A stretch of DNA of 64,000 nt from Rhodococcus oxybenzonivorans (GTDB lineage Bacteria > Actinomycetota > Actinomycetes > Mycobacteriales > Mycobacteriaceae). The stretch lies in contig NZ_CP021354.1 of NCBI RefSeq assembly GCF_003130705.1, positions 1,860,001 through 1,924,000 on the forward strand, in the 5' to 3' direction. This document shows positions 5,855 to 20,700 of the stretch, piece by piece (within the stretch, counting starts at the first letter, position 1; every line of letters starts with the position of its first letter). A model generated the notes under the pieces. That model saw nothing but the letters and a program-made list of their open reading frames with translations, had not been told where the DNA came from and made no database searches. The position numbers and the translations under genes were made by a program.

Positions 5855-5981
5855 GTATCGGCTAGGTGTTGAGAAACCTGGCTCGCCGGTCTGCGGGATT
5901 GAGAATACCCTGGGGTGGGTAACGCAGTGTGTGATGCCGCCGCGTCGCGGTGGTGTGTGGACACAGCCGAGGGGAGCCGAT

Positions 5982-6701
5982 ATGGACATCGTCGACGGCA
6001 CTGTACGTGCCGTGACCGGGGTCGCGACCGCCACGACGAGTGCTGTCGGTGCGGTCGGCGGTGCCGCGATCGGTAGCGTCGTCGGCGGTCTGCGGGGCAT
6101 TGCGACCGGGGCTGTGCGCGGCGCCGCGAGTGGGGCCCGAAGCGGGTTCGACAGCGGCAGCCATTCGACGTCGACGGCGGTAGCGACGTTGGCGGCGGTA
6201 GGTGCGATCGGTCTCGTCGAGTGGCCGGTGGTGGTCACTGTCGGGGGAACGGCGTTGGCGCTGCGGCAGATCAACGCCGCCCGTTCCCGCGGTCGGACAA
6301 ATTCAGAATCCGTCACCTCGTCACCGCCGCGGGATGTGCCGGCCGCGAACGATGCTCTTACCTCCGACACTGCTCCTGCTTCCCACACGGCTCCTGCTTC
6401 GAACCCTGCGGCGACGTCGGTGGTTGCGCCCTCTCCCGGGGCCGCCCCGGCGCCGGAGAGGTCGGCTCCTGCCGAGAAAGCTCCGGCAAAGAAGGCTCCG
6501 GCAAAGACTGCGAGTGCGGCAACAAAGATGCCGGCCGGCACACCGGCCGCCGCCAAGAAGGCTCCCGCCAAGAAAGCTCCCGCAAAGAAGTCGGTCCCGG
6601 CGAAGAAGGCGATTGCCCGCAAGACTGCGGGGAAGGCGCTTCCGCCCGCGAGGTCGCGTGCAGGATCGGCGTCGGCCTCCCGATCGACGCGCGCGAAGTA
6701 G
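5982..6701 (+). CDS. Small membrane protein with EWPV segment and histone-H1-like lysine/alanine/proline tail
   Basis: A 239-residue protein. ATG 5982 is chosen because GGGGAG sits five bases upstream; the frame is open further up but without a site. Residues 1-65 are Gly/Ala/Val-rich and low in charge. Residues about 68-100 hold a hydrophobic segment containing VEWPVVVTV. From about residue 140 the sequence becomes Ala/Pro/Lys-rich with repeated APAKKAPAKK units, like the tails of mycobacterial HupB/Hlp and eukaryotic H1, and ends in Arg/Ser-rich sequence. The stop lies five bases before the GTG of the giant P-type ATPase, so they probably form an operon. The EWPV segment recurs in the small gene on the other side of the ATPase. 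Function unknown. Confidence 0.75.
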   Translation: MDIVDGTVRAVTGVATATTSAVGAVGGAAIGSVVGGLRGIATGAVRGAASGARSGFDSGSHSTSTAVATLAAVGAIGLVEWPVVVTVGGTALALRQINAARSRGRTNSESVTSSPPRDVPAANDALTSDTAPASHTAPASNPAATSVVAPSPGAAPAPERSAPAEKAPAKKAPAKTASAATKMPAGTPAAAKKAPAKKAPAKKSVPAKKAIARKTAGKALPPARSRAGSASASRSTRAK

Positions 6702-6706
6702 GCGAC

Positions 6707-9700
6707 GTGGGTTTACGTCGATATCTCGCCGCCGCCGCGTCCGTACCGGTACGCAGCGTCGGTTTCGGGGTGGGTGTCGTGACGCACAGCGGCGCCGTCG
6801 CGGCCGATCTGATGACGACCACCGCTCGGGTCGCGACGTCGATCGCCGCCGAGGCTGTGGGCGGAACACCGGCACGCCGCACCAGTGCCGGGCGTGGCCG
6901 GGTTTGGATAGAGGTTCGTGGACTCGACAGTCCCCGCGGCGACGACGTGGCCGCCGAGGTACTCGACGCTGTCCGCACCACTACCGGGGTTCAAAGCGTG
7001 CAGCTCAACCGCCCGTTGTCACGGCTGATCGTGTCCCACGGCGAGGGTGGCCCGTCGGTCGAGGAGCTGAGCGCCATCGTGTCCACCGCCGAGAACCGGA
7101 CGCGAACCGGCGACGATCGCGACCATCCGTCGGAACTGCCGGGCGACGATGTGACGCTCGCCGAGAGCTGCCTCGCTCTGGCGGCTGTCACCACCGGCCT
7201 CGCGGTGGCCGTCGCGGGCCGCGCCCTGCGTCTTCCTCAGGTGCCCGGTTCGGCGCTGACCACGGTGGTCACGGCCGTGAATTATCAGCCGCGACTGCGA
7301 AAGATCGTCGAAGACCGGTTGGGGCCGGATGCGGCAGAACTCGTCTTGGCCACCGCTCAAGCACTCAGCGATGTCATTCGGCAGGCGCCGTCGTCCCTGG
7401 CGGTGGACGTGGGCTTGCGGTCGGCGCTGACCGCCGAAGCGTGGTCCGCCCGGCAGGCCTGGTACCGCCGTGAGCCCCAGCTGGCGCGGAGCGCTGCGGA
7501 CCACACCGCCCCTCATCAGCAACCACCCGACCGCACGTCCGGTCCCGTCGAACGGCATGCCGACCGAGCGGCTGTTGCGCAGCTGGTCGGCGCGGCAACC
7601 GTCGGTGCCGCGACACGCAGTGCCGCCGGGGCAGGGGACGCCGTGCTGGTCGCCGCCCCCAAGGCGACCCGCACCGCCCGCGAGACATTCGCGGCCACGT
7701 TGGGACGTGGCCTGGCGGACCGCCACGGCGCGCTGACGTTGCGCCCCGGCGCGCTCCGGTGCCTCGACCGGGTAGACACGGTCGTGATGGATCCGTCGAT
7801 TCTGCAGACGGCGGAGCTGCGTGTCAGTCGCATCCGCGGAGTGCGCGACGCCGATCGCACCAGAGTCTGGGAAGCCGCGCGATCGGCCGTCGACCGCGAA
7901 GAGTTCGGGCCCGGCTGGCACCTGCTGGCCGACCTGCCGGGTGAACTCGGCGCTGCAGGCGAGCACGAGGACGCTGCCGTGTTCGTCACACCGGCCCACC
8001 ACCCGCTCGCGGCCGCGGTGCTCGCGCAGGCACGCACCTCCGGAGTCGCGGTGGTCTCCGTGGACACGGAGTCGCTCGGGAGTCTCCGTTCAGCATTCGA
8101 CGATCTCCATCCCAGCAGTGGAGCGGGCGAGTTCCGCGGTTCACCCGACCGCGATCTTCGCGACGCGGTCGTTCATCTGCAGGCCGAGGGCGCGACTGTT
8201 GCGGTGGTGGCGGCGGGAGCGCCCAGCGCGCTGGCGTCCGCTGATGTCGGCATCGGAGTCTTGGTGGACGGTACGGCCCCGCCGTGGCCGGCGGACGTGC
8301 TCGTCGACGATCTCGCCGGGGTGTGGCGAATTCTCCGAGCACTGCCCGACGCACGGGCCGCGAGCCGGCGCGGCGTCGAGATCGCCACCGCGGCATCGGT
8401 ACTCGGCGCACTCCTGATGCTTCCCGGTGTGCGTGGCCGGGGCCCGGGGCCGATCACGGCCGGTGCGGCGGCCGGCCTGTGGACGGGACACTCGCTGGCG
8501 CGGCGCGTGATCAAGGCGTCCGTTCCGCCATCGGCCCCCGTGCATGCCTGGCACGAGATGCCTGTCGAGGAGGTGCGGCGACTCCTTCCTGCGCAGGAAG
8601 GCGACGGCGACATCGGTGCGCGCCCCCGTGCGCTCGACTGGGCGCTGGCACCGCTCGAATGGGGTAGCAGTCTCGCGGCCTGGCCGGTGGGGCTCGCCTG
8701 GGACTTCGGCCGCGCGATGCGCACCGAACTGTCGGATCCGCTGACACCCATTCTCGCGACCGGTTCGGCGGCGAGCGCTCTGCTGGGTTCGCCGATCGAC
8801 GCTGTGCTCGTGGGATCCGTGCTGACCGGGAACGCGGCACTGTCGGCCGTGCAGCGACTGCATGCGGAACGACTGCTGAGCCGGCTCCTCGCTGCGGGTG
8901 ATCCGCCCGCACATCGGGTGAGCGGATCCCCGGAGGAGCGCGTCAGTGAGCGCGTCGAGGCCTCGCGGTTGCGGATCGGTGACGTGATCGAGATCGGTCC
9001 GGGAGAGGTCGTTCCCGCGGACGGCCGGTTGATCGAGGTGTCCGGTGTCGAGGTCGACGAATCCTCGCTCACCGGGGAGTCGCTGCCGGTGGCGAAACAG
9101 ACGTCGCCGACACCCGGTGCACCGCTGAGCGAGCGCTCCTGCATGGTGTTCGGCGGTAGCACCGTTCTCACCGGAACGGCCACCGCGATCGTCACTGCCG
9201 TGGGGGAGGCGACGGAGGCGGGACGTGCCGGGGCGATCAGTCCCACCGGTGCATCGCACGTCGGCTTGCAGGCTCAGCTGCGCAGCCTCACCGACCGGGT
9301 GCTGCCGGTCAGCGTCGGGGGCGGGGCCCTCGTCACCGCGGTCGGCTTCCTCCGCGGAACGGGACTGCGTCAGGCGGTCACCAGCGGCGTCGCGGTCGCG
9401 GTCGCGGCGGTGCCCGAGGGGCTGCCGTTGGTCGCCACTCTCGCGCAGCAGGCGGCGGCGCGCCGGTTGACCAAGTCGAATGCGCTTGTGCGAGCGCCGC
9501 GCTCGGTGGAGGCGCTCGGCCGCGTCGACGTCGTGTGCTTCGACAAGACGGGGACGCTGAGCGAGAACCGGCTTCGTGTCATCAGAGTCGTGCCCGAGCC
9601 AGCCGTCGACCACGACGAGTTGCTGATGTGCGCTGCGCGTAGTGCCGTGACGCCCGACGGACGTCCCGCGGACCATGCCACCGACGTCGCCATCGCGGAG

Positions 9701-11251
9701 GCCGCTCAGCAGCTCGACTGCGGCGACGAGGCGCAGTGGTCCTACCTCCCGTTTCGATCGGGACGACCCTATTCGGCGGCACTGTCCGGCACACACCTGT
9801 GTCTGAAGGGTGCACCGGAGACGGTTCTGGCCGCATGCCCCGATATCGACGACGACGAAGTGGGTTCCCGGGTCCTCGCGATGGCCGGCGACGGGCTTCG
9901 GGTGATCGCCGTCGCGCGGCGCACCGTCACCGCGTTCCAGGCCCGGCGCGCTGCCGACGACGGTGCGGTGTTCGAGAAACTCTGCAGCAGTGGGCTCGAA
10001 CTCGTCGGATTTCTGGGGATCGCGGACACACCGCGTCCGGAGGCTGCGGGGCTGCTGCCGGAGCTGGAACGCCAGCAGGTCGGGGTGCGGCTGCTCACCG
10101 GTGACCATCCCGTCACTGCCACCGCCATCGCGCAGGAACTGGGATTGACCGTGTCGTCCGAGCAGGTGATCAGCGGCTCCGACTGGGACACCCTGTCGCA
10201 TCGTGGGCAGGAGGAGGCCGTCGAGAAGTGCCTCGTGTTCGCGCGGATGACTCCGGAGAACAAGGTGCAGGTGGTGCAGACTCTCGAGCGCGCCGGACGC
10301 GTGTGCGCCATGGTCGGGGACGGTGCCAATGATGCGGCGGCCATCCGCGCGGCCAGCGTGGGTATCGGTGTCAGTTCCCGCGGCAGCGATCCGGCCCGCA
10401 GTGCGGCCGATGTGGTCCTCCTCGACGGCCGGGTGGACGCACTGCTCGACGCCCTGGACGAAGGGCGGCAACTGTGGCGGCGCGTTCAGGCGGGGGTGTC
10501 CGTCCTCCTCGGGGGTAATGCCGGTGAGGTGGCGTTTGCACTGATCGGGAGCGCGACTGCGGGTAAGTCGCCGCTAACCGCGCGTCAGCTGCTCCTGGTG
10601 AATGTCCTCACGGATGCTTTGCCTGCGGCGGCGCTCGCGGTAAGTCCGCCCAACGAGGACGCGCGAGGAGAAGGCCGCGGACCCGACAGCGCAGCCTTGT
10701 GGCGCACAGTTGCGATCCGTGGTGCCGCGACTGCGATGGGTGCGACGACGGCGTGGACGATGGCGAGTCTGACGGGCAGGCAGCGCCGCGCCTCCACCGT
10801 AGGACTGGTGGCATTGGTCGGAACGCAGCTCGGGCAGACGCTCATCGACTCCCGCAGCCCATTAGTGGTGCTCACAGCAGGTGGTTCACTCGCCGCCCTG
10901 ACGGTGCTGGTGAGCACGCCAGGCGTCAGCCAGCTACTCGGATGCACACCCCTCGGTCCGGTGGGGTGGACGCAGGCGCTGGGGTCGGCGGCTGCCGCCA
11001 CCGCAGCCGCCGCATTCGCACCGGGAGTCCTGGCGAAGCTGGCGGGAGATCAGTCGACGATGTCGAGTACGCCCGCCCTCACCAACACGGCGTATACCTC
11101 ATGCAACGGGGGAGTGAGCGCGCGTGTCACCGCGCCGGTCCAGAAGTCGCCGGGGGCGGAGACGACGCCGACAGCGGTCCGGGCTGCAGAAATCAACACA
11201 GCGGTCACAGTCCTCGACCAACGTGACCGGCAGGTGAACAGCACGGACTAG
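6707..11251 (+). CDS. ctpI: Giant CtpI-type P-type cation ATPase with an extra degenerate ATPase module
   Basis: A 1514-residue protein from GTG 6707. The frame is open upstream to 6221, but that part overlaps the preceding gene and is non-protein-like. The C-terminal half is a complete P2-like pump: TGES at residue 789, PEGLP at 903, the phosphorylated Asp in DKTGT at 946, TGDHPVTAT, and GDGAND at 1204. PEGLP suggests a Ca2+/Mg2+/Mn2+-type rather than heavy-metal pump. Residues about 50-110 look like a ferredoxin-fold domain without CxxC. Residues about 300-560 align with the pump's own P-domain but carry DPSIL at 362 where DKTGT should be and GAPSAL at 504 where GDGAND should be. Length fits mycobacterial CtpI, whose substrate is not established. 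Confidence 0.9.
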   Translation: MGLRRYLAAAASVPVRSVGFGVGVVTHSGAVAADLMTTTARVATSIAAEAVGGTPARRTSAGRGRVWIEVRGLDSPRGDDVAAEVLDAVRTTTGVQSVQLNRPLSRLIVSHGEGGPSVEELSAIVSTAENRTRTGDDRDHPSELPGDDVTLAESCLALAAVTTGLAVAVAGRALRLPQVPGSALTTVVTAVNYQPRLRKIVEDRLGPDAAELVLATAQALSDVIRQAPSSLAVDVGLRSALTAEAWSARQAWYRREPQLARSAADHTAPHQQPPDRTSGPVERHADRAAVAQLVGAATVGAATRSAAGAGDAVLVAAPKATRTARETFAATLGRGLADRHGALTLRPGALRCLDRVDTVVMDPSILQTAELRVSRIRGVRDADRTRVWEAARSAVDREEFGPGWHLLADLPGELGAAGEHEDAAVFVTPAHHPLAAAVLAQARTSGVAVVSVDTESLGSLRSAFDDLHPSSGAGEFRGSPDRDLRDAVVHLQAEGATVAVVAAGAPSALASADVGIGVLVDGTAPPWPADVLVDDLAGVWRILRALPDARAASRRGVEIATAASVLGALLMLPGVRGRGPGPITAGAAAGLWTGHSLARRVIKASVPPSAPVHAWHEMPVEEVRRLLPAQEGDGDIGARPRALDWALAPLEWGSSLAAWPVGLAWDFGRAMRTELSDPLTPILATGSAASALLGSPIDAVLVGSVLTGNAALSAVQRLHAERLLSRLLAAGDPPAHRVSGSPEERVSERVEASRLRIGDVIEIGPGEVVPADGRLIEVSGVEVDESSLTGESLPVAKQTSPTPGAPLSERSCMVFGGSTVLTGTATAIVTAVGEATEAGRAGAISPTGASHVGLQAQLRSLTDRVLPVSVGGGALVTAVGFLRGTGLRQAVTSGVAVAVAAVPEGLPLVATLAQQAAARRLTKSNALVRAPRSVEALGRVDVVCFDKTGTLSENRLRVIRVVPEPAVDHDELLMCAARSAVTPDGRPADHATDVAIAEAAQQLDCGDEAQWSYLPFRSGRPYSAALSGTHLCLKGAPETVLAACPDIDDDEVGSRVLAMAGDGLRVIAVARRTVTAFQARRAADDGAVFEKLCSSGLELVGFLGIADTPRPEAAGLLPELERQQVGVRLLTGDHPVTATAIAQELGLTVSSEQVISGSDWDTLSHRGQEEAVEKCLVFARMTPENKVQVVQTLERAGRVCAMVGDGANDAAAIRAASVGIGVSSRGSDPARSAADVVLLDGRVDALLDALDEGRQLWRRVQAGVSVLLGGNAGEVAFALIGSATAGKSPLTARQLLLVNVLTDALPAAALAVSPPNEDARGEGRGPDSAALWRTVAIRGAATAMGATTAWTMASLTGRQRRASTVGLVALVGTQLGQTLIDSRSPLVVLTAGGSLAALTVLVSTPGVSQLLGCTPLGPVGWTQALGSAAAATAAAAFAPGVLAKLAGDQSTMSSTPALTNTAYTSCNGGVSARVTAPVQKSPGAETTPTAVRAAEINTAVTVLDQRDRQVNSTD

Positions 11252-11262
11252 GGAGGCGAACT

Positions 11263-11553
11263 ATGGCCGACAACACACCGAGGGCCGAAGAAACACCGAG
11301 CCGCGACGCACACCGGGACGCGGTCGCGCGGGTGCGGGAGGCGTCCGGCTTCACCGTCCAGTTACCGGTACTCGGACGTGTACCCGTCCCACGTCCCGAA
11401 CAGTTGGCGTTCTTCACCGCGATCGGGCTCCTCGCGGCCGTCGAAATCATCGAATGGCCGGTTGCGCTGACCATCGCGGCCGGGCACATCCTGATCGCCG
11501 ATCAGCACAACAGAGCTGTTCAGGAGATCGGGGAGGTCCTGGAAGCGGTGTGA
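11263..11553 (+). CDS. Small membrane protein with EWPV motif, CtpI-linked
   Basis: A 96-residue protein 11 bp after the P-ATPase stop with a strong GGGAGG ribosome-binding site, so it is probably the last gene of the same operon. The first 45 residues are charged and hydrophilic. Residues about 48-80 form one hydrophobic stretch (FFTAIGLLAAVEIIEWPVALTIAAGHIL), followed by a short charged tail. The core EWPVxxTxxG/A motif and its spacing match the membrane segment of the 239-residue protein on the other side of the ATPase. I infer that both belong to one family of accessory membrane proteins that interact with, or are regulated together with, the pump. No biochemical function is known to me. 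Confidence 0.75.
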   Translation: MADNTPRAEETPSRDAHRDAVARVREASGFTVQLPVLGRVPVPRPEQLAFFTAIGLLAAVEIIEWPVALTIAAGHILIADQHNRAVQEIGEVLEAV

Positions 11554-14272: not shown

Positions 14273-14444
14273 CCGCGAACCTTTCCGGGGCCGCGGCGCC
14301 GTCGGGGCCCCTCTCGAACCAGACTCCCACAGGCGAGGGTTGCGTGCGCCGGAACGTATATCGGCCTGAGCTTCGCAACGTAAGTCGGTGCTCTGTGGTA
14401 AGTCTGACCCGACACCGGAGTGGGGAGCGAAGGAGGGTGGTGAC

Positions 14445-17400
14445 GTGTTCGTACTGCATCGTGCCGAGCGTTCAACCACCCTCGCCGCCGCGCTGGGCGA
14501 TGTCCTCGCCACTCCACTTGCCGATCCGTTCGCCCGCGAGGTGATCGCGGTTCCCGCGAAGGGTGTGGAGCGCTGGCTGACGCAACGGCTCTCGGCGGTG
14601 CTGGGCGCGCGAGCGGACTACGGCGACGGTGTGGCCGCGAACATCGACTTCCCGTCCCCGACACGGCTGGTCGACGACGCACTCGCCGCGGCCACCGGCC
14701 TGTCCGCCGAGGATGATCCGTGGAATCCCGCCCGACTGCTGTGGGTGCTGCTCGACGTCGTCGACGGTTGCCTCGGCGAACCCTGGTGCGCTGTCCTCTC
14801 GAAACACCTCGGGTCCGGCCTGTCGGCGCAAGGTCGAGACGATCACCGGCCGGGTCGCCGGTACGCCACGGCGTCGCACCTGGTGGAACTGTTCCGGAGT
14901 TATGCCGCCCAGCGGCCGGCAATGCTCGTCGGCTGGGCGGGTGGCCACGACATCGACGGAACCGGTGGGGCGCTCGACGAGGATCTCGTGTGGCAGGCCG
15001 AACTGTGGCGTCGACTACGGACACGCGTCGGCACCCCGGGCCCCGCGGAACGGCTCGACTCGGCCTGTTCCCGGCTGCGGGACGAGCCCGGGCTCGTGGA
15101 TCTCCCGCAACGCCTCTCGCTGTTCGGGCCCACCCGCCTCGCCACCGACCAGATTGCAGTGCTTTCTGCACTGGCCGCGCACCGCGACGTACACCTGTGG
15201 CTGCCGCACCCGAGTCCGGCCATGTGGGCAACTCTGACGACAACGCAAGAGGTGACTGCCCGCGCCGACGACCAGAGTGCGCTCGCCGTCCGTCACCCGC
15301 TCCTCTCGAGCCTGGCCCGTGACGTCCGCGAACTCGAAGCGCGCCTTGTGCGCCTCGACCTCGACGACGTCCACCACGACGCGCCACCGGGTCCGCAGAC
15401 GCTACTGGGTCGCCTGCAAACCGACATCCGGGACGATCGGACACCGGTGCATGCCGGGATCGATCCCGACGACTCCGTGCAGGTGCACGCCTGTCACGGG
15501 CCGGCCCGCCAGGTCGAGGTCCTGCGTGAGTGCCTCCTCCACCTGTTCCAGGACGACCCCACGCTCGAACCGCGCGATGTCGTGGTCATGTGCCCCGACG
15601 TCGAGTCCTACGCACCGCTGATTCGTGCCGCATTCGGCCAGGACGTGCTCGGGCATCCCGGACACCGGCTGCGGGTACGACTCGCCGATCGTGCTCTGCA
15701 CCAGACCAATCCGGTGCTCGCGGTGGTCGCGACGCTGTTGGGGCTGGCCGATTCCCGCGTCACCGCCAGTCAGGTACTCGATCTCGCCGCCGCGGTTCCG
15801 GTGCGCAAGAAGTTTCGTTTCGACGACGACGATCTCGAACGTATCCGGGAATGGGCCACCACTACCGGTGCGCGGTGGGGTATCGGGCCACGTCAGCGCA
15901 CGGCCTACGGCCTCGGTGACTTCCCGCAGAATACCTTCACGACGGCACTCGATCGGATTCTGCTGGGCGCCGCTGCCGACGAGTCGGACAGCGAATGGCT
16001 CGCGCTGGCCCTGCCCCTCGATGACGTCGACAGCAACGACATCGACCTCACCGGCAGGCTGGCCGAGTTCGTCGATCGCCTCGACGTCGCCCTGCGAGGA
16101 CTCGGTGGGCGACAATCGGTGGCGGAGTGGTCGCGGGCGCTGACAAGGGCTCTGGACCTCCTCGTGGAAGTGGGTGCGGCAGACGCCTGGCAGTCGGCGC
16201 AGGCGCGGCGCGAGTTGGGCGCCGCGATGGAACACGGGGGAGAGATGGTGCTGCGGCTGTCGGACGTGCGCGCCATGCTCGCCGGCAGGCTGGCGGGACG
16301 TCCCACGCGGGCCAACTTCCGCACCGGCGAACTGACGGTGTGCACGATGGTGCCGATGCGGTCCGTCCCGCACCGTGTCGTCGTTCTCCTCGGGCTCGAC
16401 GACGAGGTTTTTCCCCGCGCGGCCGGCGTGGACGGCGACAACGCTCTCGCCCGCAATCCTCTGCTCGGCGAACGTGATCCGCGCAGCGAGGATCGTCAAC
16501 TCCTCCTCGACGCGGTGATGTCCGCCGGTGAGAAACTGTTGCTCTTCTACACGGGCGCCGACCCGGTCACCGGTATGGTGCGGCCGCCGGCGATCCCGTT
16601 GTCCGAGTTACTCGACACGGTGGCCGTCACGCTCGGCGGCGACGCGTTGAGCCAGGTGATCACCCGTCACCCCCTGCAGCCGTTCGATGCGCGCAACTTC
16701 GAGCCCGAGCATCCGTTCAGCTTCGATCGTGTGGCACTTGCCGGGGCTCGGGCGGCTCGATCTCCCTCCGTGCCGAATCCGGCTTTCCTTCCGGACCCGC
16801 TGCCTGCGCCGCCGCCCGAAGACGTCGACCTGGCAGACCTCATCGCCTTCCTCGTACATCCCACGCAGGCGTTCCTCCGGCAACGGCTGGGTCTGCGCAT
16901 TCCCGAGGTGGATGAGGACATCGCCGACGCACTCGATATCGCGCCCGACCCCCTCGCGCGGTGGGATCTCGGACAACGGATGCTCGTCGCGCGGCTCGCC
17001 GGAACCGAGCCGGCCGATTTCCGCGCCGCCGAGTGGCGCCGCGGCACACTGCCGCCGTTCAAGCTGGGGGAGTCGGTGCTCGGGGCCATCGAACACGGTG
17101 TCGAGGCGCTCGTCGCCGTCAGCGCACCCGTCCATGTGGGCCGCGCGCAGACCGTGGATGTGGACGTCGACCTCGGCTCCGGCCGGCGTCTCACCGGGAC
17201 TGTCGGCGGCGTCCACGGTTCGGTGATCGCGAACACCACCTATTCACGGCTCGGTCCGAAACATCGCCTCGCCGCGTGGGCGCAACTGCTGGCAGTCGCG
17301 GCGTCGGGCAAGGGCGACGCATGGTCCGCCGTCACCACGGGCCGCGGCGCGTACAGCAGACCCGCGTGGCGTTCCACGTTGACCGCTCCGCCCGACGCCC

Positions 17401-17705
17401 TCGAGCAGCTCACTCGCCTCGTCGAACTCCGCGACCTCGGGTTGCATGCGCCGCTGCCGATCGCGACCGGCGCCTCGGCGGCCTATGCGGAACGGCGGTA
17501 CGGCGGAAGCAGCGTCGAGGATGCGATCGAGGCGGCGCGGCGGGAATGGAGCAGCGACTTCGGGGATGCCAAAGACCGTCACATCGTTTATGTTCACGGG
17601 CCCTCGCCGAGTATCAACGTTCTCGGTGATTCGGTGGTGTTCGACGACTACGCCCGGAGACTGTGGGCGCCGCTGCTGGCGGCCGAGACGCTGGCGCAGC
17701 CATGA
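14445..17705 (+). CDS. recC: Exodeoxyribonuclease V gamma subunit RecC
   Basis: A 1086-residue protein. GTG 14445 follows a GGAGGG site, and an in-frame start at 14388 has none. The N-terminal region (FVLHRAERSTTLAAALGDVLATPL then VPAKGVERWLTQRL) and the later VFPRAAGVDGDNALAR block are typical of RecC. In the RecBCD complex RecC is the scaffold carrying inactive helicase-like and nuclease-like domains; it splits the strands and recognises the regulatory Chi site. The stop overlaps the recB start in an ATGA arrangement, giving translational coupling through recC-recB-recD. The complex resects and repairs double-strand breaks and degrades foreign DNA. Actinobacterial RecBCD Chi recognition differs from that of E. 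coli, so motif-level predictions are not made. Confidence 0.93.
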   Translation: MFVLHRAERSTTLAAALGDVLATPLADPFAREVIAVPAKGVERWLTQRLSAVLGARADYGDGVAANIDFPSPTRLVDDALAAATGLSAEDDPWNPARLLWVLLDVVDGCLGEPWCAVLSKHLGSGLSAQGRDDHRPGRRYATASHLVELFRSYAAQRPAMLVGWAGGHDIDGTGGALDEDLVWQAELWRRLRTRVGTPGPAERLDSACSRLRDEPGLVDLPQRLSLFGPTRLATDQIAVLSALAAHRDVHLWLPHPSPAMWATLTTTQEVTARADDQSALAVRHPLLSSLARDVRELEARLVRLDLDDVHHDAPPGPQTLLGRLQTDIRDDRTPVHAGIDPDDSVQVHACHGPARQVEVLRECLLHLFQDDPTLEPRDVVVMCPDVESYAPLIRAAFGQDVLGHPGHRLRVRLADRALHQTNPVLAVVATLLGLADSRVTASQVLDLAAAVPVRKKFRFDDDDLERIREWATTTGARWGIGPRQRTAYGLGDFPQNTFTTALDRILLGAAADESDSEWLALALPLDDVDSNDIDLTGRLAEFVDRLDVALRGLGGRQSVAEWSRALTRALDLLVEVGAADAWQSAQARRELGAAMEHGGEMVLRLSDVRAMLAGRLAGRPTRANFRTGELTVCTMVPMRSVPHRVVVLLGLDDEVFPRAAGVDGDNALARNPLLGERDPRSEDRQLLLDAVMSAGEKLLLFYTGADPVTGMVRPPAIPLSELLDTVAVTLGGDALSQVITRHPLQPFDARNFEPEHPFSFDRVALAGARAARSPSVPNPAFLPDPLPAPPPEDVDLADLIAFLVHPTQAFLRQRLGLRIPEVDEDIADALDIAPDPLARWDLGQRMLVARLAGTEPADFRAAEWRRGTLPPFKLGESVLGAIEHGVEALVAVSAPVHVGRAQTVDVDVDLGSGRRLTGTVGGVHGSVIANTTYSRLGPKHRLAAWAQLLAVAASGKGDAWSAVTTGRGAYSRPAWRSTLTAPPDALEQLTRLVELRDLGLHAPLPIATGASAAYAERRYGGSSVEDAIEAARREWSSDFGDAKDRHIVYVHGPSPSINVLGDSVVFDDYARRLWAPLLAAETLAQP

Positions 17706-20700
17706 CCGACACCCGGGGGTTCGATCTGCTCGGACCGTTGCCGTCGGGCACCACCGTGCTCGAGGCCAGCGCTGGGACGGGGAAGACCTACGCGATCGTG
17801 GGACTCGCCGCCCGCTTCGTCGCGGAAGGTGGAATCGACCTCTCGCGACTCCTGCTGGTCACCTTCAGCCGCGCGGCGACCCAGGAACTGCGCGAGCGCA
17901 CCCGGGAACGCTTTCGCAGTGTGGCAACAGAATTGGCCGATCCTCGGCAGGCCCTCCGCGGCGAGGATCAGGTCATCCGGCACCTGGCCGACGCCGACCC
18001 CGAGGAGGTGGCACTGCGACGTCGACGACTTCTCCAGGCTCTGTCCGACTTCGATGCGGCCACCATCGTCACCACCCACAGCTTCTGCCAGCGCATGCTC
18101 GACGGCCTCGGCATCGCCGGTGAACGGGACCCCGACGCGGTGCTCGTCGAGGCCGCCGACGACCTCGTCACCGAGGTGATCGACGACCTCTACCTCAGCG
18201 CCTACAGCCGTGCCGAGTCCGCACCGTTCACCCCGGCGGAAGCCACCGCCGCCGCACGGGCCGCCATCTTCGATCCCCAGGCCGTGCTCGCACCGGAAGA
18301 CGCGCGCGGCACCCCCGCAGGCGAACGGGTTGCGTTCGCCGAGGCGGTACGCGGCGAGGTGGAATGTCGCAAACGCGCTGTGGGACTGCGTGACTTCGAC
18401 GATCTGCCAGCTCTCCTCCATCGCGTACTCACCCATCCCGAACACGGTGAGGCCGCCTGCCGGCGAGTGCGGGACCGGTACGACGTCGTCCTCGTCGACG
18501 AGTTTCAGGACACCGATCCGCTGCAATGGGACATCCTCGGCAGAACCTTTCACGGGGGCGGTCAGGCTTCGCGGCACCGCGCGGGAACGTTGGTGCTCGT
18601 CGGTGATCCGAAGCAGGCGATCTACGCGTTCCGGGGGGCCGAGGTACTCAGCTACCTCGACGCAGTCCAGTCGGCCGACAGCCACGAGGAACTGGTCACC
18701 AACTGGCGCAGCGATCAGGAACTGCTCGACGCACTGGAGTACCTCCACGGAGGAGCCGCCCTCGGCCATCCCGACATCGTGGTGCACCGGGTGGACGGCG
18801 CTCGACCGAAGTCGCGGCTCACCGGGGCGGCACCGCTGCGTCTGCGTTACCTGCCTCGCACCGGCGCGGGTGCGATCAACAAATCGGGCTACCCCGCCGT
18901 CGGTCCGCTGCGCAACCGGGTGGCCGCCGACCTCGCAGCAGACATCGTCCGCACCCTCGACGGCGGCGTCACACTCGACATCGGCGGCGTGTCCCGGGCG
19001 GTTCAGCCGGGCGACATCGCCGTTCTGGTGCGGACCAACGCGCAGATCACCCTGGTGCACGATGCCCTCGACCGCGCCGGGGTCCCGTCGGTCCTCGCAG
19101 GCGGAGCCAGTGTGTTCACCACACCCGCTGCGCAGCACTGGCTGTGGGTTCTGCAGGCACTCGAGCAACCACACCGTTCCGATCGGGTCCGGCTCGCCGC
19201 CCTCACCCCCTTGCTCGGACACACCGCGGAGGAACTCGATGCCCGAGGTGACGACATCGTTGCCGAAGTCGGTGGGTTGCTGCGTGAACTCGCCTCGGTG
19301 TTCGCGCTGTCCGGTTTCGCGGCCCTCTTCGAACGTCTCGCGGCGATCAGACGGCTCGAGGCCCGGTTACTGGCAGTCTCCGCCGGAGAGCGCGCCCTCA
19401 CCGATCTCCGCCATGTGGCGCAGTTACTCAACGGTGCCGCCGTGGAGCAGTCCCTCGGCCTCACCGCAATCACCCGATGGCTCACCGAACGGATGAAGGA
19501 CCCGTCGTCCGGCGGCGTCGACCGCAGCCGACGCCTGGACAGCGATGCCGCGGCAGTGCAGATCGCGACCGTCCATGCCAGCAAGGGTCTCGAGTTTCCG
19601 CTCGTCTACCTGCCTTACGCGTGGGATGCTGCGAAGAATCCGAAACCGAATAAGCTGCTGCTGCACGACGACAACGGGCGGCGCATCCTCGACGTCGGAG
19701 GCCCGAACAGTCCGGGCTATGCGGAACGTAAAAGCAGGCACGACGCGGAAGAAGCGGGCGAGGAGCTTCGCCTGCTGTACGTTGCGCTCACCCGGGCGAT
19801 GTGCGGTCTTGTGCTGTGGTGGGCGCCCGCGTTCTCGACTGCGGGTGCGCCCCTGCACCGGATGATCCTCGGCCGCGCGCCGGGACAGCGCGACGTGCCA
19901 CAGAAAGCGAACGTTCCGGAAGACCCGGTCGTCGCCGATCGGTTGTCGGCCTGGGGTGCCGGCGGTCCCGACACGGTGCACGTCGAGCCCGTCGGTTCCG
20001 AAGCGGTGCCACCCGCGCAGTGGTCACCGCTCAAAGAGTCGGGTGGTGACCTCGAGGCCGCCCGGTTCCAGCGCCTTCTCGACACTCGGTGGCGGCGAAC
20101 CTCGTACTCGGCGTTGACTGCGTCCGCGCACGAAAGCCCGGCAGTGGGCAGCGAAGCGGAGGTCGACGTCAAGGCGGACGAACCAGACGAGCCGCCGCTG
20201 CACGCGCCGGAAGACGGGGGCACCGGTCTCGCCTCGACGATGAACGACCTCCCCGGCGGCGCGACATTCGGAACCCTCGTCCACGCCGTGTTCGAAGTCG
20301 TCGACACCACCGCCTCCGACCTCGAATCCGAACTCGTGCGCTGTTGCACCGAGGTGATCGCGTCGACCATGTCGGAGATCGATCCGGCGCGGCTCGCTGC
20401 CGCCCTGCTGCCCGTACTGCACACACCCCTCGGATCCGCGGCGGCACGGACGCTCGCGGAGCTTGCGCCCGCAGACCTGCTCGCGGAACTCGAATTCGAG
20501 CTTCCACTCGCCGGCGGAGACACACCCTCGCTCACGGTGATGCTCGACGGCGTCGGCAGACTGTTGCGCACCCACCTTGCCGCCGACGATCCGCTGTGGC
20601 CGTACGCGGATGCCGTGACCACTCTGGAACCCACGCCGTTGCGTGGATACCTCACCGGCAGTATCGATGCCGTGATACGGCTGCCCGGCCCTCGCTACAT

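Follow-up and report, generated by a model that had tools for sequence, protein, structure and literature searches.

What fills the N-terminal half of a double-length CtpI-type pump? The question is raised by a 64,000-nucleotide stretch of Rhodococcus oxybenzonivorans DNA (contig NZ_CP021354.1, positions 1,860,001 to 1,924,000; here called the window), part of an 8.0-Mb genome of four contigs, in which a forward-strand frame with a GTG start at 6707–11251 encodes a 1514-residue ctpI-type protein followed by a stop. The closest named relatives of this protein among the matches listed are from Rhodococcus, and its name, cation-transporting ATPase I, is taken from the source labels of relatives. 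A preliminary description, made from the sequence alone, read the protein as a degenerate P-type ATPase fused to an active one, and this reading is supported by profile comparisons, an AlphaFold model and motif counts. Residues ~60–605 are almost certainly P-type ATPase-shaped and catalytically dead, and CtpI-type proteins are probably pseudo-P1B-ATPases fused to an active P2A (calcium-type) pump.

The AlphaFold model of the dead half is confident (predicted local distance difference test score 89.8, predicted template modelling score 0.89), and its best matches in the PDB are the heavy-metal P1B pumps ATP7B, ZntA and CopA. On the forward strand, the modelled unit opens with an HMA-like domain (residues 62–130; 6890–7096), seen in the strands and helices of the model and in A1, a profile of 13 diverse dead halves. 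A helix bundle ahead of the P domain follows (residues 148–340; 7148–7726), visible in the model and in hydropathy, and leads into a HAD-like pseudo P domain (residues 345–535; 7739–8311) that carries Asp362 (D362; codon 7790–7792), the counterpart of the phosphorylated Asp. Both profiles and model show a reduced nucleotide-binding insert in this domain, in line with the shortening first described. Two modelled helices (residues 536–603; 8312–8515), equivalents of P1B M5–M6 and the best conserved of the dead-half parts measured, complete a predicted P-type fold across residues 60–605. Beyond what had been noticed earlier, the unit has the HMA-like domain and lacks an A domain, with no strands of at least three residues between the model helices at 228–260 and 280–303. 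Most of its helices are weakly hydrophobic: the best mean over 19 residues is 1.84 for the helix at 148–173 and between 0.46 and 1.33 for the rest, in keeping with the topology problems that the available excerpts of PMC3573892 describe for CtpH and CtpI.

Most landmarks of the preliminary description withstood recalculation. The frame, its length and the positions of D362 (codon at 7790) and D946 (codon at 9542) are as given there, and 9 of 21 residues are indeed identical, without gaps, from an Ala-Leu pair to the key Asp, at which DPSIL replaces DKTGT. The proposed pairing of GAPSAL (residues 504–509; 8216–8233) with GDGAND holds in part: GAPSAL does lie beside the lost GDGxND loop, but the exact register is wrong by about 4 residues, as VGIGV follows the start of GAPSAL by 10 residues and the start of GDGAND by 14; in the P1B alignment the lost GDGVND loop falls over 'VVAA--GAP'. 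The distances between landmarks, 142 residues in the dead half and 258 in the active one, were reproduced, the former being a few residues off because GAPSAL is out of register. Taken alone, the single-sequence match carries little weight: without gaps, the dead half scores at best 32 (BLOSUM62) against the DKTGT segment, and 10 of 2000 shuffled versions of the half do at least as well. Together with the blank returned by Pfam and NCBIfam for the window's own dead half, this would suit a chance likeness borne by some other fold; that explanation is contradicted by the structure model and by the profiles, which are much stronger than the single match, and is scarcely credible.

Loss of catalytic motifs extends across the family. 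We aligned 111 proteins longer than 1400 residues, the window's included, drawn from 120 of 559 relatives; a separate locus sample took 80 of 199 confirmed loci, by their titles mostly Mycobacteriaceae, Rhodococcus and Nocardia, and a third alignment (A3) joined 35 of these 80 loci to the window fragment and 13 listed proteins. Neither DKTG nor GDGxND occurs in the dead half of any of 92 fused proteins, among them the window's protein and its paralogue. The Asp itself is nearly always retained: of 94 dead halves, 91 have D at residue 362, two have H and one has E, and 85 keep DPxxL. Counted anywhere in the dead part, irrespective of position and with no chance control, TGE[SPT] occurs in 2, [CST]P[CH] in 9, CxxC in 1, PE[GA]L in 20 and TGD in 19 of the 92. 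The window's dead half has no CPx metal site, reading APKAT at P318, the M4 proline near which the helix bundle is broken, and CxxC is absent from its HMA-like domain and from the whole half. Having lost the A domain, the greater part of the nucleotide-binding insert and the DKTGT, GDGxND, CPx and CxxC motifs, the dead half should not bind ATP, autophosphorylate or pump metal.

The active half lies at residues 676–1440 (8732–11026, forward strand) and is marked by TGES, PEGLP, DKTGT, GDGAND and NVLTDALP, with Asp946 (codon 9542–9544) as the expected phosphorylation site. In the whole protein, Pfam matches above cut-off fall only here (E1-E2_ATPase 744–923, Hydrolase 940–1216, Cation_ATPase_C 1288–1434), and the TGE, DKTG and GDGxND motifs with Cation_ATPase_C place this half among P2-type cation pumps. 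All three motifs are present in 85/85 complete C-terminal halves, with PE[GA]L in just 44 of the 85. Of 92 fused proteins, 87 show the M5 pattern, all of them with GNxGE, and the M6 pattern NxxTDxxP of calcium pumps is kept; the ligand roles of both motifs are known from SERCA. In NCBIfam the 1514-residue protein scores best with PMR1-type and SERCA-type calcium pump models, in both cases below cut-off (316.7 bits for the PMR1-type model TIGR01522, against a curated cut-off of 798.3), and the nearest solved relatives of its C-terminal half are LMCA1, SPCA1 and SERCA. By motif likeness, then, the active half appears calcium-pump-like.

Where the dead half came from is a question of P1B or P2 descent. 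Aligned by hhalign with P1B pumps of the same genome (7 usable of 8 loci, the eighth giving no DKTGT frame), A1 reaches E 7.8e-12 in an alignment of 465 columns that starts at residue 48 and, in a second comparison, E 7.2e-12 with a best alignment of 255 columns from residue 263 on; an empty P1B row was removed in the 465-column comparison and kept in its P1B decoys and in the 255-column comparison. The same profile also aligns with 12 diverse C-terminal halves, the active halves of its own family (E 7.4e-9, 211 columns), and a hidden Markov model (HMM) of the dead half matches active halves in several fused relatives, the lowest domain E being 5e-5. Both observations count against P1B descent and for an internal duplicate of the P2-type pump that has shed its catalytic parts. 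Yet the P1B alignments are the better ones (E 7e-12), as they are when residues 301–610 alone are compared (4.9e-12 against 1.2e-9 for the C-terminal halves), and a control with equally diverse inputs left P1B descent ahead of a duplicated active half. With less diverse input all values weaken: A1 gives 4.8e-5 against the 111-row C-half alignment, and the 111-row dead-half alignment gives 5.3e-6 against P1B and 1.5e-4 against the C half. Decoys, 20 of them column-shuffled (ten per kind) and 2 reversed, all stayed at E of at least 0.16. The top HMM and fold matches are likewise P1B, an HMA-like domain stands in front, and just two helices follow the P domain, which is the P1B topology.

Searches of single chains and families add detail of uneven weight. 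Against PDB chains, the A1 list is headed by a CopA chain that has two HMA domains (E 6.2e-7 for the chain as a whole; 0.055 and 0.062 for individual stretches), and the copper ATPase HMA4 comes third, at 1.3e-5; this last value is a chain sum of three HMA stretches and one P-domain stretch, and the P-domain stretch alone is weak (independent E 0.054), which slightly lowers the chances of P1B descent and raises those of the internal duplicate. For isolated copper-pump P domains E is 0.016 at best; a proton pump has 0.22, and a sugar-binding protein, which is unrelated, has 0.066. The copper ATPase model TIGR01511 is the sole P-type family of NCBIfam touched by the 13 dead halves (1/13, E 0.018); in Pfam, HMA is matched by 3 of the 13 (best E 0.003), not including the window's own, and the P2-type Cation_ATPase_N by one (E 0.17). 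VIA-align lists, crowded with P-type chains of many classes, give no decision on subclass. Overall the profiles favour descent from a P1B pump, though by no overwhelming margin, over a duplication within the pump itself; we consider P1B rather than P2 descent highly probable, and the duplicate unlikely.

If the N-terminal half is a dead P1B-type pump, is it still of use? A search with A1 recovers it in 33/396 Actinomycetota genomes at E 1e-10, the window's own included, both inside and outside the window's class; at most three candidates were scored per genome, and the counts are possibly low. Distances between dead halves and between active halves correlate closely (r = 0.956; 4186 pairs from the 92 fused proteins); median pairwise distances are 0.55 for the dead half, which changes faster, and 0.37 for the active half. 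Such a pattern would be expected if the fusion is old and has been passed on as a unit. Dead halves also exist as stand-alone proteins. We found eight, including one in the same genome (L039:10457–12697), on the window's contig and ~3.4 Mb from it; the named ones are all from Rhodococcus, and the other copies are 74–84% identical to that of R. oxybenzonivorans, with open frames. No stand-alone gene matched a plasmid in PLSDB. Two further candidates were set aside: a frame on a Mycobacterium interjectum contig (L116), which crosses a masked stretch and whose tail reads like another frame, and a 724-residue frame (G220) that is a fused gene cut by a contig end. The L116 frame is still counted among the 94 dead halves scored at position 362.

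These observations bear on the idea that the dead half is a functionless relic, decaying while the active pump carries it along. Its faster divergence is what such decay would produce and weighs against a functional role, as do apparent losses of parts: in two other genomes of the genus (L143 and L149) the dead half seems, by eye, to begin without the HMA-like domain, and part of the P-domain insert is missing in L047/L048. Retention in 33 genomes within and beyond the class, conserved positions across the 13 diverse members and stand-alone frames still open at this level of divergence all speak for maintenance, and we judge the relic very improbable.

A candidate partner of the dead half is encoded beside it. 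Just downstream of the ctpI-type gene lies a forward-strand gene for a 96-residue membrane protein with the motif EIIEWPVA (11263–11553), and an HMM built from the three copies in the same genome detects relatives beside 55 of the 80 fused loci, 53 just downstream and 2 upstream; of the 25 loci without one, 16 have at least 700 bp of flank and 9 have less. The stand-alone dead half of the same genome carries a copy of this protein fused at its C terminus and adjoins a second fused ctpI-type gene. Because of this neighbourhood and this natural fusion, the evidence suggests that the 96-residue protein works with the dead half. It has no Pfam match at E 1, and hence none to DUF1490. Just upstream of ctpI, at 5931–6701 on the forward strand, a 256-residue protein shows a weak glycine-zipper match (Gly-zipper_YMGG, E 0.0014; 18.7 bits where the cut-off is 28.9), and by eye a similar protein start precedes the stand-alone dead half. 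The segment LVEWPVVV of this upstream protein resembles EIIEWPVA, and the two proteins may be related. Between the two dead-half genes of L039, at ~9600–10315, lies what looks by eye like a winged-helix response regulator.

We propose that the dead half would serve as a built-in, non-catalytic partner packed beside the active half in the membrane, where it may regulate, tune or stabilise that half and may dock the small EWPVA membrane protein; the stand-alone chain, dead half plus small protein, could act in trans. A regulatory or scaffold role of this kind we hold to be evenly balanced between right and wrong. More specifically, and only tentatively, at a chance we rate somewhat under even, CtpI/CtpH may be an intramolecular heterodimer in which a dead P1B-type obligate subunit of a calcium-type pump recruits the small partner, with the stand-alone form and its fused partner working in trans. 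Alternatively, some reduced activity might persist in the dead half itself, for example passive passage of ions or ligand sensing by D362 or by the HMA-like domain. The near-invariance of D362 (91/94) and the P1B-like helix bundle kept in the model are points in its favour and tell against a purely non-catalytic partner. Loss of the metal, Mg and nucleotide motifs, the H or E at position 362 in 3/94 dead halves and the two fused forms that by eye lack the HMA-like part point the other way, and residual activity seems improbable.

Elsewhere in the window, two long forward-strand frames (1105 and 779 residues) occupy 14388–20002. The second has a nucleotide-binding motif, ASAGTGKT, near its start and looks like a RecB-type helicase.

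A dead P1B-type half offers a testable reason for the double length of CtpI/CtpH; its borders define constructs, and a partner protein is pointed to. Should the dead half prove to regulate the pump, pseudoenzymes, a concept well known for kinases among others, would have a counterpart among P-type ATPases. A literature search for P-type ATPases described as pseudo, inactive, degenerate or tandem returned only a dynein match, with Chan et al. 2010, reportedly the source paper of the FUPA24 family, outside its coverage, and a search for P-type ATPase with pseudoenzyme returned none; in the literature searched, such a class is not described for P-type ATPases.

Among known systems, the protein belongs by its features with CtpI/CtpH in TCDB family FUPA24 (3.A.3.24), sharing an actinobacterial host, about twofold length and motifs confined to the C-terminal half. 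The long N-terminal segment of FUPA24 is noted, and not termed a P-type ATPase, in the available excerpts of PMC3573892; a 2023 review (PMC10654040) gives CtpI and CtpH an isolated place in the P-type tree and lists them as uncharacterised, and excerpts of PMC4119724 report on expression and on comparisons with human homologues. With P1B pumps (CopA, ZntA, ATP7B, HMA4) the dead half shares the HMA-like domain, the helix set, the P-domain fold and the two helices after it; unlike them, it lacks the A domain, CPx, DKTGT, GDGxND and CxxC and has a strongly reduced nucleotide-binding insert. The active half, in turn, shares its catalytic motifs and the GNxGE and NxxTDxxP of M5/M6 with the P2A calcium pumps LMCA1, SPCA1 and SERCA, whereas the window's protein stays below the PMR1-type equivalog cut-off, PE[GA]L is kept in about half of the complete C-terminal halves, and a dead half is attached. 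PacL proteins (DUF1490) are described as small partners of mycobacterial P1B pumps in the accessible parts of PMC13043812 and PMC9374683; the EWPVA protein is likewise a small membrane protein encoded beside a P-type pump, but it has no DUF1490 match and adjoins a P2-type pump. By analogy, what other pumps have as separate subunits may here be a partner built into the pump itself.
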